From positions 1,549,501 to 1,613,500 of the forward strand of contig NC_011146.1 in the NCBI RefSeq assembly GCF_000020725.1: a stretch of 64,000 nt of DNA, in the 5' to 3' direction. This document shows positions 43,044 to 48,296 of the stretch, one piece after another (position 1 is the stretch's first letter; the number at the start of each line of letters is the position of its first letter). This stretch comes from Citrifermentans bemidjiense Bem (lineage in GTDB: Bacteria > Desulfobacterota > Desulfuromonadia > Geobacterales > Geobacteraceae). The position numbers and the translations under genes are program-made. The notes under the pieces are model-generated. The model did no database searches. It had not been told where the DNA came from and saw nothing but the letters and a program-made list of their open reading frames with translations.

Positions 43044-44039
43044 ATGCACAAACGGAAACTGGGGCAGCAGGGACTCGAAGTTTCGGCGCTGGGGCTTGGC
43101 TGCATGGGGATGTCCTATGTCTACGGGCACAGGGACGACGCTGCATCGATCAACGTCCTGCGCCGGGCGGTGGAGCTGGGAATTACCTTCTGGGATACCG
43201 CCGAGGTCTACGGTCCCTTCTGCAACGAGCAGCTTTTGGGGCGCGTGCTGAAGGAGGTGCCGCGCCAGCGGCTGGTTCTGGCCACCAAGTTTGCCTGGAG
43301 GTTCGGCCCCCACGGCCGGGAGATCGGCCTGGACAGCAGCCCCGCCCAGGTGCGCCGCGCCATCGACGGTTCACTCAAGAGGCTCGGTACCGACTACATC
43401 GACCTCTACTACCAGCATCGCCTCGACCCCGCCGTCCCGATCGAGGAGACGGTAGGCGCGCTGGCAGAACTGGTGCAACAGGGAAAGGTCCGCTACATAG
43501 GCCTTTCCGAAGTGGGGCCGGGCATCGTGCGTCGGGCGCATGCGGTGCATCCGCTGAGCGCGGTACAGTCCGAGTTTTCCCTGTGGGAGCGGGGGGTGGA
43601 GGACAAGCTTCTGCCGGTGCTGCGGGAGCTGGGGATCGGGTTCGTCGCCTACAGCCCGATGGGGCGCGGGTTCCTGGCGGGCAAGATCAGGACCCCTGAA
43701 GACCTTGAGCCCTGCGACTGGCGCCGCAAGAACCCGCGCTTTCTGGCGGAGAACCTGAGCCACAACTTCAGGCTGGTTTCCATGGTGAACGACATCGCCC
43801 GCGCCCACGACGCGACCCCGGCCCAGGTGGCGCTTGCCTGGATACTGGGCCGCGGCGGCGACCTGGTCCCCATACCCGGCACCAAGCATCTGCGCTACCT
43901 GGAGGAAAACGCCCAGGCGGCGGGGCTGAAACTCTCCGAGGAGGTCTGGGCCGACCTGGACCGCTCCGTGGCCTGCTTCAAGGTGGCGGGAGAGCGCTAC
44001 CAGGAGGAGGCACTGCGCTTCATCGACAGCACCGAGTAG
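43044..44039 (+). CDS. Aldo/keto reductase
   Basis: 331-residue (beta/alpha)8 NADPH-dependent oxidoreductase. The catalytic tetrad is visible: D51 and Y56 (WDTAEVYGP), K82 (LATKFAW) and H125 (YYQHRLD). The NADP-binding segments are VAYSPMGRGFL and PIPGTKHLRYLEENA. Sequence style is that of the AKR13/YakC group, which reduces small aldehydes. The natural substrate is unknown. It follows a small membrane protein gene and precedes the transketolase gene on the same strand, separated by 115 bp that probably contains a promoter. Confidence 0.94.
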   Translation: MHKRKLGQQGLEVSALGLGCMGMSYVYGHRDDAASINVLRRAVELGITFWDTAEVYGPFCNEQLLGRVLKEVPRQRLVLATKFAWRFGPHGREIGLDSSPAQVRRAIDGSLKRLGTDYIDLYYQHRLDPAVPIEETVGALAELVQQGKVRYIGLSEVGPGIVRRAHAVHPLSAVQSEFSLWERGVEDKLLPVLRELGIGFVAYSPMGRGFLAGKIRTPEDLEPCDWRRKNPRFLAENLSHNFRLVSMVNDIARAHDATPAQVALAWILGRGGDLVPIPGTKHLRYLEENAQAAGLKLSEEVWADLDRSVACFKVAGERYQEEALRFIDSTE

Positions 44040-44154: not shown

Positions 44155-46290
44155 ATGACCATCGAATTAAATCCGGGCAGCGCCGGGAACCTGGACCAGC
44201 TCTGCATCAACACCTTGCGTTTCCTGGCGGTGGACGCCATCCAAGAAGCCAACAGTGGCCATCCCGGCATGCCGATGGGGGCAGCCCCCATGGCATACCT
44301 GCTCTGGACCCGATTCCTGAGGCACAATCCCGCCTCCCCGGGTTGGTTCGACCGGGACCGCTTCGTCCTCTCCGCGGGGCATGGCTCCATGCTGCTTTAC
44401 TCCCTGCTGCACCTGACCGGCTACGACCTCCCCCTGTCGGAGCTGAAACGCTTCCGACAGTGGGGAAGCCGCACCCCCGGACACCCGGAGCGGGGGCTTA
44501 CTCCGGGGGTAGAGCTGACCACCGGGCCTTTGGGGCAGGGGTTCGCCGGCGCCGTCGGCATGGCGATAGCAGAATCCCATCTTGCCGCCCGCTATAACCG
44601 GCCGGGGTTCACGCTCGTGGACCACTTCACCTACGCCCTTGTCGGTGACGGCGACCTCATGGAAGGGGTGGCGGCCGAGGCGGCCTCGCTTGCCGGGCAC
44701 CTGCGCCTTGCAAAGCTCATCTGCCTATACGACGACAACCGCATCACGCTCGCCGCCGCAACCGATCTGAGCTTCACCGAGGACCGCGGCGCGCGCTTCA
44801 GGGCCTACGGCTGGCAGGTGCTCGAGGTTGCCGACGGCAACGATCCGGAGGCGATCGGGTGGGCCTTGGAGGAGGCGCGGGCGGAAAAAGAGCGCCCCTC
44901 CCTGGTCATGGTGCGCACCCGGATCGGGTTCGGCTCGCCGCAGAAACAGGACAGCTTCGAGGCGCACGGCGCACCCCTTGGGGTGGAGGAGGTGCGCCGC
45001 ACCAAGGATGCGCTCGGATGGCCGCAGGAGCCGCAGTTCCACATCCCGCCCGAGGCGCTGGCGCGGTTTCGCGAGGCGCTGGTGAAAGGCGCCGTGGAGG
45101 AGCGGGCCTGGGAGTCGGTCATGGCGGGTTACGACGCGGCGTACCCGGCTGAGAGCGCCGAACTGACGCAGGTTCTGGCTGGGGAGCTGCCGCAGGGGTG
45201 GCAGGAGGCTCTGCCGGAATTCCCCGCCGACGCCAAGGGGATGGCGACGCGGGTAGCCTCGGCAAAGGTGCTGAACGCCTTGGCCCAGAGGGTGCCGCAA
45301 CTTTTCGGCGGCTCCGCCGACTTGAACCCCTCGACGCTCACCGCGCTCGCCGGCAAGGGCGACTTCCAGCCCGAAAGCTTCGACCCGCTGGACAGGCAGG
45401 GGGCGGTGGGGGGGGCATGGGGGCGCGCCGGGGCGAACCTGCACTTCGGCGTCCGCGAGCACGCCATGGGGGCCATCCTGAACGGAATGGCGGCGCACGG
45501 CGGCACGCTTCCCTACGGCGCCACCTTCCTCACCTTCTCCGATTATCTCCGCCCCGTGCTCAGGCTGGCGGCGCTGTCGCGGCTCAAGGTGATCCACATC
45601 TTCACCCACGACTCCATAGCGCTGGGGGAGGACGGGCCGACCCACCAGCCGGTGGAACAGCTGGCTTCCCTGCGCGCCATCCCGCGCCTGGTGGTATTTA
45701 GGCCTGGGGACGCCAACGAGTGCGTTGAGGCCTGGCGCGCGGCGCTCCAGGTCGAGGGGCGGCCGGTGGCCCTCGTGCTCTCGCGCCAGGCGCTGCCCAC
45801 TTTGGACCGTGGGGAGCTGGGCGCGGCGGCGGGGGTGCTCCGGGGAGGCTACGTCCTCGCCGAGGCGCGGCAGGGGGCGCCTCGCCTGATCCTCATCGCC
45901 ACTGGATCCGAGCTTTCCCTGGCCCTGGCTGCGCGCAATTCGCTTGAGGAGCGCGGCCTCGCGGTCCGCGTCGTCTCTCTCCCCAGTTGGGAGCTCTTCG
46001 ACGAGCAGCCGCAGGAGTACCGGGACTTCGTGCTGCCGCCTACGATGACGGCGCGGCTGGCGATCGAGGCGGGGGCGACCCAGGGATGGCACCGCTACCT
46101 GGGGTCGGGGGGGATAGTCTTGGGAGTCGACGATTTCGGGGCCTCTGCCCCGGGAGAGGTCGTCTTGAGGGAGTATGGTTTCACCGTGGACCATGTTTGT
46201 GGCATGGCGCTGCAATTGACAGGGGGCGCGGGCCCCGGCCTGGGCGCGGCGCCCGAAAAACCGCCGGAGGCACCCTCTCCGAAACCGTAG
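44155..46290 (+). CDS. tkt: Transketolase
   Basis: 711 residues, thiamine-diphosphate enzyme of the non-oxidative pentose phosphate pathway, transferring two-carbon units between sugar phosphates. Seen are [36 protein letters not shown], the cofactor motif [14 protein letters not shown] through [14 protein letters not shown], the active-site segment [14 protein letters not shown] and [17 protein letters not shown]. All catalytic-region motifs look intact. The transaldolase-like gene starts 9 bp after the stop, so the pair forms an operon. An Ala/Pro-rich tail ends the protein. A G8 tract lies in frame near 45408-45415. Confidence 0.96.
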
Positions 46291-46299
46291 GAGCGAGAC

Positions 46300-47424
46300 A
46301 TGAGAGAAACGCCGCTTACCAACCTGGTGCAGTGCGGACAGAGCGTCTGGCTCGACGGCATCAGCCGTCCCATGCTGCTCTCCGGGGCCCTGATCTCGCT
46401 GGTCCAGGACGGGGTCAGCGGCGTCACCTCGAACCCGGCCCACCTTGAGCGGAGCATCGCCGCGGGCCACGATTATGACGCTGCCATCGCCCTCTTGGCA
46501 CGGCAGGGGCAGGACGCGCAAGGGATCTACGAGACGCTGTCGACCGAGGATGTACGGCTGGCCGCCGACCTCCTGCATCCCCTGTACCTGCGGCTGGACC
46601 GCAGGGACGGTTTTGTAAGCCTTGCCCTTTCCCCGCACCTGGCGCATGACGGCGCCGCGATGCTCGCGCAGGCAAGGCGGCTTTGGGAGCTGGTCGACCG
46701 CCCCAACCTCCTGGTCGAGATCCCCGGCACCTGCCAGGGGGTAGCCGCCTTGCGCCAGTTGGTCCGGGAGGGGATCAACGTCAACGTGACCCTCGTTTTC
46801 GCCGTCTCCCGCTATCTGGCCGCGGCTGAGGCCTACCAGGACGGGCTCTCGGAGCGCGCCGCCCGCGGGCTTCCCCTAGCCGGAGTCGCCTCGGCGGCCA
46901 CCCTCACCGTCGGCCGCATCGATGCCATGGTGGATCCGTTGCTTTCCAGGCTGGCGCAGAAGGAGGGAGGCGAGGCGAGGATGGCGGCGGCGCTAAAGGG
47001 TGAGGTGGGAGTAGCGTGCGCGAAGGTGTTTCGCAAGGTGAACCGCGAGATCCATTCCGGCGGTCGCTACCTGGCCCTTGCCGCGCAAGGGGCGAGGCAG
47101 CAGCGGCTGGTTTTCGCCGGTGCCAGGACCGGGGGGGACGCTGCCGGCCTGAGGAACCGGGAAGGGCTGCTGGGCCCAGGGACCGTCGACGCCATGCCCC
47201 TGGAAGCCATCGCCGCCTACCGGGACCACGGAGAAAGGCCGGCGGGGCGCCTCGACGAGGGGGTGCAGGAGGCTCTGACCACACTGGAGCGGCTTCATGG
47301 CCTTGGGGTCGATCTGAACCAGTTGGCTCGGCGCCTTGAGGCCGAGGGGGTGGAGCGTTCTGCCCGCCCCTACGACGGCCTTTTGCGCAACATCGAGCTC
47401 AAGCGGATCGCAGCCCTCGGCTGA
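46300..47424 (+). CDS. tal: Transaldolase-family protein lacking the Schiff-base lysine
   Basis: 374 residues, full length for the longer bacterial transaldolases, with good family motifs: SVWLDGISRPML, GVSGVTSNPAHLERSI, ADLLHPLYLRLDRRDGFVSL, SPHLAHD and INVNVTLVFAVSRY. The segment that normally reads NLMIKIPAT, where the Lys forms the covalent intermediate with fructose 6-phosphate, reads NLLVEIPGTCQG here, with Glu at residue 140. The codon GAG is clear in the sequence. As encoded, standard transaldolase chemistry should be lost unless another residue takes over. It is co-transcribed with transketolase. Confidence 0.85.
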   Translation: MRETPLTNLVQCGQSVWLDGISRPMLLSGALISLVQDGVSGVTSNPAHLERSIAAGHDYDAAIALLARQGQDAQGIYETLSTEDVRLAADLLHPLYLRLDRRDGFVSLALSPHLAHDGAAMLAQARRLWELVDRPNLLVEIPGTCQGVAALRQLVREGINVNVTLVFAVSRYLAAAEAYQDGLSERAARGLPLAGVASAATLTVGRIDAMVDPLLSRLAQKEGGEARMAAALKGEVGVACAKVFRKVNREIHSGGRYLALAAQGARQQRLVFAGARTGGDAAGLRNREGLLGPGTVDAMPLEAIAAYRDHGERPAGRLDEGVQEALTTLERLHGLGVDLNQLARRLEAEGVERSARPYDGLLRNIELKRIAALG

Positions 47425-47438
47425 ACCGCCGCGTACTT

Positions 47439-48296
47439 CTAATTCTCTTTCCCGTCCTGCTCTGGCGCAGCGATCATGGCCGCCAGTTTCCGGTAGCTGC
47501 CGTTCATCAAGGTTTTTCCCAGGTAGAGTGCCAGCGGGTTTATCCTGCAGTGCGCCGGCAGCGTCATCATCCGGCATCCCCTCATCATCTTGGCGCGGTC
47601 CAGGCTCTCCTTGCCGCTGGGAAACCCCCTGAAGAGCATGCGGGCGTCGCTGCGGCTCGCCTGCTCCCTCAGGACGTGCAGCATGAAATCGGTGACCTTC
47701 AACTGCTGGCTCAGGGAATCGGAAAAAAATACGTCCTCTATGATGAGATCCTCGACCTGGTAGGAGATGTCCACGGCGCTCAGCCTCTCCTGCCGGTACG
47801 CTCCCGTCACCTTCACCTTCGGGTTGCTGTAGATCGTCCTTGCCCACTGCGCGAAAAACCTTTCGGCGGTCCGCTCGCTCTTGTAGAAGTACTTGGTCCG
47901 CTCATAGAAAGAGCGGTAGACCGGGTACGCCTGCTCGATGAAGAGTTCGACATCGGTCAAGCGCTCGGCACGGAAGGACTCCATCGACTTGCGCACCACC
48001 CACCTCGACTTCTTGTCCATCCCCTCCAGTGCGTAGCCGGCAATGTCTTGGTAGAGAAAGAGGTTCATGTTGCTGTTCGCCGGCACTTGCTCCGGGACCA
48101 GATGCAGCACCCCCCCCACCAGTGACTGCGCGGGATAGTTGGCCACCCGGGGATTTACCCGGCTTAGCGGGAAGAGCGGCCTGAAAAAGAAGGGGCGCGC
48201 CTCAACCCACCAGGTATCCTTGATCTTCACCACGCGGTCGCCGTCATTTCGCTTAAAGGCCGCATATTCCTCTATGCTCATCCGTTCCCAGGTCAT
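47439..48296 (-). CDS. Hypothetical protein, possibly FemAB/GNAT-like
   Basis: 285 residues, soluble, rich in aromatic residues. The segments KSRWVVRKSMESFRAERLTD, FIEQAYPVYRSFYERTKYFY and KVTGAYRQERLSAVDISYQV resemble the general layout of FemAB-like or GNAT acyltransferases, but no diagnostic motif is clear. It has no signal peptide. A GAGGGG box precedes the ATG. It stands alone, convergent with the transaldolase gene, and 624 bp of sequence separate it from cheD. The function is not known. Confidence 0.6.
   Translation of the reverse strand: MTWERMSIEEYAAFKRNDGDRVVKIKDTWWVEARPFFFRPLFPLSRVNPRVANYPAQSLVGGVLHLVPEQVPANSNMNLFLYQDIAGYALEGMDKKSRWVVRKSMESFRAERLTDVELFIEQAYPVYRSFYERTKYFYKSERTAERFFAQWARTIYSNPKVKVTGAYRQERLSAVDISYQVEDLIIEDVFFSDSLSQQLKVTDFMLHVLREQASRSDARMLFRGFPSGKESLDRAKMMRGCRMMTLPAHCRINPLALYLGKTLMNGSYRKLAAMIAAPEQDGKEN

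Follow-up and report, generated by a model that had tools for sequence, protein, structure and literature searches.

In transaldolases, the Schiff base is formed by the conserved lysine residue. Metabolic pseudoenzymes that partner active enzymes, for example PDX1.2 and the AdoMetDC prozyme, have kept an enzyme fold and a sequence under selection, have lost catalytic residues and are paralogues of the enzymes that they serve. Pseudoenzymes are well known as a class, and the transaldolase case proposed here would be new within it; a literature search, conducted for the most part outside the subscription journals, retrieved no report of an inactive transaldolase or a transaldolase pseudoenzyme. 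According to PMC2700814, the pentose-phosphate pathway of most Geobacteraceae is limited to its non-oxidative branch, and G. metallireducens has a pgl-zwf-gnd-rpiB cluster (Gmet_2618-2621). The main text of the Geobacter bemidjiensis genome paper (PMC2996986) makes no mention of transaldolase, transketolase or pentose.

Erosion of the active site in a long-form transaldolase homologue

The window comprises 64,000 nucleotides of the Citrifermentans bemidjiense Bem genome (G000; NC_011146.1, positions 1,549,501 to 1,613,500) and contains, directly downstream of the transketolase gene tkt, a gene for an eroded transaldolase homologue, termed here tal* (Table 1). Pfam TAL_FSA matches tal* over its full length (residues 16-364; E-value 1.4e-48; 166 bits against a cut-off of 27), and among proteins of solved structure, its closest relatives are two long transaldolases, that of C. 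glutamicum (3r5e) and that of N. gonorrhoeae. The overall architecture of tal* is similar to that of the tal_mycobact-type long transaldolases (TIGR00876/NF002881; C. glutamicum 3r5e, N. gonorrhoeae 3clm and 7bbw) with respect to full-length alignment, predicted fold and descent within the intact sequences, but tal* lacks their lysine, glutamate, SFF and phosphate-loop residues. Indeed, the AF2 model of tal* is a confident transaldolase fold, a TIM barrel with a pLDDT of 87.6, and superimposes on N. gonorrhoeae Tal (7bbw and 3clm) with a TM-score of 0.89 by query length. Residues 275-286, in the region of the phosphate loop, have a pLDDT below 50; however, loop 278-284 of a control model of an intact relative (pLDDT 90.3) also falls below 50, and the low confidence in tal* is therefore not evidence by itself.

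Table 1. Features of the tkt-tal* locus and the second transaldolase of C. bemidjiense Bem; positions are those of the window unless a genome handle precedes them
Feature	Position	Strand	Remarks
Aldo/keto reductase	43044..44039	+	Precedes tkt; present in most members of the genus
tkt, transketolase	44155..46290	+	711 aa; Pro-rich C-terminal tail
Likely ribosome-binding site of tal*	46289..46293	+	AGGAG; overlaps the tkt stop codon
tkt-tal* junction	46291..46299	+	9 bases; occupied by rpiB in the genus relatives that have the operon, where tkt and tal are 454-465 bases apart
tal*, long-form transaldolase homologue with eroded active site, probable pseudo-transaldolase	46300..47424	+	374 aa
Ala109 replacing catalytic Glu (TalB Glu96)	46624..46626	+	Codon GCC; SLE to SLA
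Glu140 replacing Schiff-base Lys (TalB Lys132)	46717..46719	+	Codon GAG; context RPNLLVEIPGT
S201T, F203T	46900..46908	+	Altered SVASFF motif
S274G, T275A, K278G	47119..47133	+	Phosphate-loop motif WASTxTK lost
Short TalC/Fsa-type transaldolase	G000:730419-731048		Motifs IVIKLPMT and NVTLIF intact

From the family motifs, we picked 12 positions that we take to represent the active site. All 12 are invariant in 35 aligned intact long transaldolases, of which 16 are from relatives and 19 from the wider phylum (78 genomes of the phylum had a match, and the C. bemidjiense gene and 19 loci, L098-L116, were used; the alignments exclude two fragments, L029 and L030, and the partial second copy of G047). 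Six of the 12 correspond by alignment to D17, N35, E96, K132, N154 and T156 of E. coli TalB. The titles of solved mutant structures (TalB D17A, N35A, E96A, T156A, S176A, F178Y and F178Y/R181E; Francisella K135M) indicate that several of these positions are residues that have been studied by mutation.

Within tal*, seven of the 12 positions are changed (E109A, K140E, S201T, F203T, S274G, T275A and K278G) and five are kept (D19, N45, N162, T164 and R206). The replacement at residue 140, already noticed in a sequence-only reading of this DNA, is confirmed by the TAL_FSA match and by the alignments with 3r5e and TalB, both of which place lysine at this position (within ILIKLAST in TalB). The same reading held that the neighbouring family motifs were all well kept, which is incorrect, as the SLE, SFF and WASTxTK motifs are also altered; thus, the six further changes rule out that the lysine-to-glutamate exchange is the sole one. 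The five lysines of tal* are located at residues 221, 233, 242, 246 and 368, and none of them lies on a predicted barrel strand, ruling out a catalytic lysine elsewhere in the predicted structure. In addition, tal* scores below the NCBIfam transaldolase cut-offs (228.2 versus 233.75 bits for TIGR00876 and 334.5 versus 367 for NF002881). Five of the ten eroded sequences described below were scanned and all fail both models, whereas both of the intact genus relatives tested pass both. Loss of transaldolase activity, one of the outcomes that the sequence-only reading had considered, is strongly supported by these sequence comparisons.

Eroded transaldolases form one clade within the genus

Among 19 genomes of the genus, the long transaldolase is intact in four, eroded but full-length in nine, eroded and frameshifted in one (G011), and reduced in another to its two ends by an internal deletion (G017); the remaining four genomes (G003, G014, G018 and also G007) lack it, with tkt remaining. 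We note that in G007 (L095 3834-5902) tkt itself is frameshifted, reflecting either further decay of the locus or an assembly error. The ten eroded sequences constitute a single clade (support 100/100; stem of 0.38 changes per column) that is placed beside the intact genus sequences, and nine of them have full-length frames, the G011 row being a fragment (residues 46-374) that stands outside the codon analyses. A GGAG sequence upstream of tal* is kept in all ten members, with a tkt-tal* spacing that ranges from 9 to 57 bases.

The active site is eroded in every member of the clade, each keeping only 3-5 of the 12 positions (G011 is partial, with 10 readable), and the losses differ among three subclades. 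Residue 140 is glutamate in G000 and G006, glycine in G009, arginine in G001, G010 and G012, and lysine in G002, G005, G013 and G011. The alignment of relatives that had been proposed as a check on whether glutamate is fixed therefore gives a divided answer: glutamate is shared with the sister genome but replaced by glycine, arginine or lysine in other members of the clade. The subclade of G002, G005, G013 and G011, which retains both K140 and E109, has lost N45 (where readable), N162, T164, S201 and F203, and has R162, D164 and P203 fixed in their place at residues 162, 164 and 203. Across the clade, 17 residues are newly fixed, including C12, G20, R245, N248 and N364. Cys12 (46333-46335) is found once among the 35 intact rows, and may represent a new redox or contact site.

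An oxidative pentose-phosphate operon reduced to tkt and tal*

In the four genomes with an intact tal (G016, G008, G004 and G015), the gene order is tkt-rpiB-tal-gnd-zwf-pgl. Genes for glucose-6-phosphate dehydrogenase (zwf) and 6-phosphogluconate dehydrogenase (gnd) are present only in these four of the 19 genus genomes, as is a second rpiB, located at this locus. By contrast, rpiB, gnd, zwf and pgl were not found near tal* at the loci of the eroded clade, and neither zwf nor gnd is present elsewhere in the genomes that carry an eroded tal. Thus, tkt and tal* are the remnant of a dismantled oxidative pentose-phosphate operon. The four genes of the G. metallireducens cluster described in PMC2700814 are the same that accompany the intact tal of G016, G008, G004 and G015, whereas in C. 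bemidjiense Bem only tkt and tal* are left of the operon, with zwf and gnd missing genome-wide. Both the operon remnant and the loss of most of the active site had escaped the sequence-only reading, which overall is partly supported.

The C. bemidjiense Bem genome has two TAL_FSA genes, tal* and a short TalC-like gene. The latter belongs to the same Pfam family but, unlike tal*, keeps the catalytic lysine and the associated motifs. It is present in all 19 genus genomes, and the IVIKLPMT motif is found in each of the 16 loci read. The second functional transaldolase that the sequence-only reading had envisaged is thus represented by this gene, as judged from its motifs, and the short enzyme presumably supplies the transaldolase activity.

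The tal* protein has remained under purifying selection

Estimated with the simple method of Nei and Gojobori from pairs that share branches, dN/dS of tal* within subclades is 0.10-0.23 (0.22 for G000/G006 and 0.10 for G001/G012), the corresponding ranges being 0.10-0.26 for tkt and 0.14-0.26 for intact tal. Between subclades, it rises to 0.29-0.39 for tal*, compared with 0.18-0.22 for tkt. Neutral simulations, which were started from the same gene with a mutation spectrum taken from fourfold sites (eight pairs, 60 runs per pair), yielded mean dN/dS values of 1.19-1.61, with 0.79 as the lowest single value, and produced stop codons in 51-60 of the 60 runs per pair. Decay alone would be expected to give a dN/dS near or above 1, in contrast to the values within the subclades, and full tal* frames have persisted over a synonymous divergence of ~0.8-1.1 between subclades.

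The distribution of constraint along the protein has changed as well. For the barrel strands and loops, a core defined as sequence near predicted strands rather than by structural distances, the eroded clade has a dN/dS of 0.28 and the intact genes one of 0.11, whereas for the rest of the protein the values are 0.18 and 0.26, respectively; this shift was missing from two of 1000 codon bootstraps. Likewise, 11 of the 12 active-site positions vary within the eroded clade (223 of 362 for the other positions), compared with none of the 12 in the intact genes (316 of 361 for the others). Constraint has therefore shifted away from the barrel core and towards the remaining protein. In short, tal* combines the loss of catalytic residues with purifying selection, as pseudoenzymes do, and exhibits neither the near-neutral evolution nor the disrupted frame of a pseudogene; disruption is seen in G011 (frameshift) and G017 (deletion).

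In a tree of Tkt sequences, which was built without G007 and G011, the genomes that lack an intact tal* (G003, G014, G017 and G018) are nested inside the tal*-bearing lineage, such that the label needs three changes and tal* seems to have been lost repeatedly. Within the lineage, the gene is lost or disrupted in at least five genomes (G011, G017, G003, G014 and G018), and G007, which is unplaced in the tree, also lacks it. The role of tal* is thus not essential in all these species. Since tkt persists where tal* is gone, the survival of tkt is independent of tal*.

Alternative explanations for the retention of tal*

The repeated losses would also be accounted for if tal* were a relic without function that is in the process of being lost, having become superfluous upon loss of the oxidative branch and being either young or cheap to keep. 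Its origin as the leftover of a dismantled operon fits such an explanation, as do the frameshift in G011, the deletion in G017, the absence from G003, G014, G018 and G007, and the loss of different active-site residues in each subclade. Nevertheless, we consider a relic unlikely, given that the within-subclade dN/dS is far below the neutral means of 1.2-1.6, that simulated genes nearly always hit stops where the real frames stayed full between subclades, and that outside the barrel core the constraint is as strong as in intact genes. An origin of the glutamate as a strain-specific mutation or sequencing error, which the sequence-only reading had named as a circumstance that would overturn its view, has no point in its favour and can be dismissed with near certainty: the same glutamate is present in a 96%-identical genome (the C. 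bremense R1 record), glycine in the next relative and arginine in further ones, alongside six other changes.

Two further explanations retain an enzymatic function. That the fold, D19 and some of the pocket are conserved would be compatible with an enzyme of changed chemistry or substrate that does not depend on a Schiff base at residue 140, and the subclade of G002, G005, G013 and G011, which keeps K140 and E109 together with fixed R162, D164 and P203, possibly catalyses a changed reaction. For the clade as a whole, a new active site that is shared should be conserved, yet position 140 differs between members (E, E, G, R, R, R or K), almost all of the active-site positions vary and the barrel-core dN/dS is raised relative to intact genes. 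As the former active site belongs to the protein's more variable regions, changed chemistry is the less likely explanation and, in our estimate, improbable. The use of another residue or of different chemistry, as suggested by the sequence-only reading, is likewise not supported, because the sister genes do not conserve the changed residues. That tal* still acts as a transaldolase, via another lysine or a weak residual mechanism, would be in keeping with the overall fold and with D19, N45, N162, T164 and R206; however, with all five lysines off the predicted strands, Glu109 and the phosphate-loop residues gone and the scores under the NCBIfam cut-offs, we regard it as highly improbable.

A possible role as a non-catalytic partner

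Selection on the tal* protein in several species suggests a job other than catalysis, and we consider it probable that tal* represents a pseudoenzyme of the transaldolase family whose role is non-catalytic, derived from the dismantled operon, the rest of the protein being under selection. In this lineage, rpiB, gnd, zwf and pgl have left the locus, and zwf and gnd the genome, and the remaining tal has lost its catalytic centre, differently in the three subclades. The rest of the protein has stayed under purifying selection, with the ribosome-binding site retained. A folded, non-catalytic TIM barrel may be kept for binding, in which case tal* would act by means of a surface or of a site that senses sugar phosphates, and not through a Schiff base.

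As tkt and tal* are the operon genes that were kept together and are closely spaced, transketolase is the most economical candidate for a partner, and the gene order hints, tentatively, that tal* may be an accessory or regulatory partner of the adjacent enzyme. The Tkt of C. bemidjiense Bem has all ten motifs that were sought, a statement that applies to this protein only, the patterns being too strict for some relatives. A function as a sugar-phosphate sensor, or with another partner, is also possible. With regard to the new role next to tkt raised by the sequence-only reading, purifying selection points to some role, whereas the connection with Tkt is one of gene order. The full scenario, in which a transaldolase made redundant by loss of the oxidative branch was converted into a non-catalytic subunit or a sensor of sugar phosphates dedicated to binding and tuning Tkt, as the first pseudo-transaldolase, with the constraint shifted from the active site to new surfaces that would include the newly fixed C12, G20, R245, N248 and N364, appears doubtful as a whole. 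Like PDX1.2 and the AdoMetDC prozyme, tal* has kept an enzyme fold and a selected sequence while losing catalytic residues; these two serve paralogues, whereas the target of tal* would be an unrelated kind of enzyme, Tkt, or something else.

A single genus thus provides a natural series from an intact operon, through a remnant with an apparently dead but constrained enzyme, to a frameshifted or deleted gene and finally to its absence, illustrating how an enzyme of central metabolism may outlive its catalysis. If the role is confirmed, transaldolase would take its place among enzymes of which pseudoenzymes have been retained, and Fe(III)-reducing bacteria may possess a regulator of the transketolase step that has so far gone unsuspected. 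In practice, tal* would be taken for a working transaldolase wherever annotation or metabolic modelling relies on family membership.

Additional features of the locus

In G000 and G006, tal* is in frame with tkt, with one TAG and three codons between them (46288-46299). Read-through of the tkt TAG in these two genomes would yield a Tkt-Tal fusion; other relatives do not conserve this spacing. The C-terminal tail of Tkt (46220-46287) is longer in the subclade of G000, G006 and G009 than in relatives, and is proline-rich in G000 and G006. A second, split transketolase, the N- and C-terminal parts of which are separate matches, is encoded at G000:C1:337080-338664 and is also found in relatives. 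Convergent with tal*, a gene on the reverse strand (47439-48296) encodes a 285-aa protein that has no Pfam match and of which relatives are encoded close to the locus in several genomes of the genus. Further upstream in the window, a single protein encoded on the forward strand at 38072-39583 matches both L,D-transpeptidase (YkuD) and D-alanyl-D-alanine carboxypeptidase (M15).
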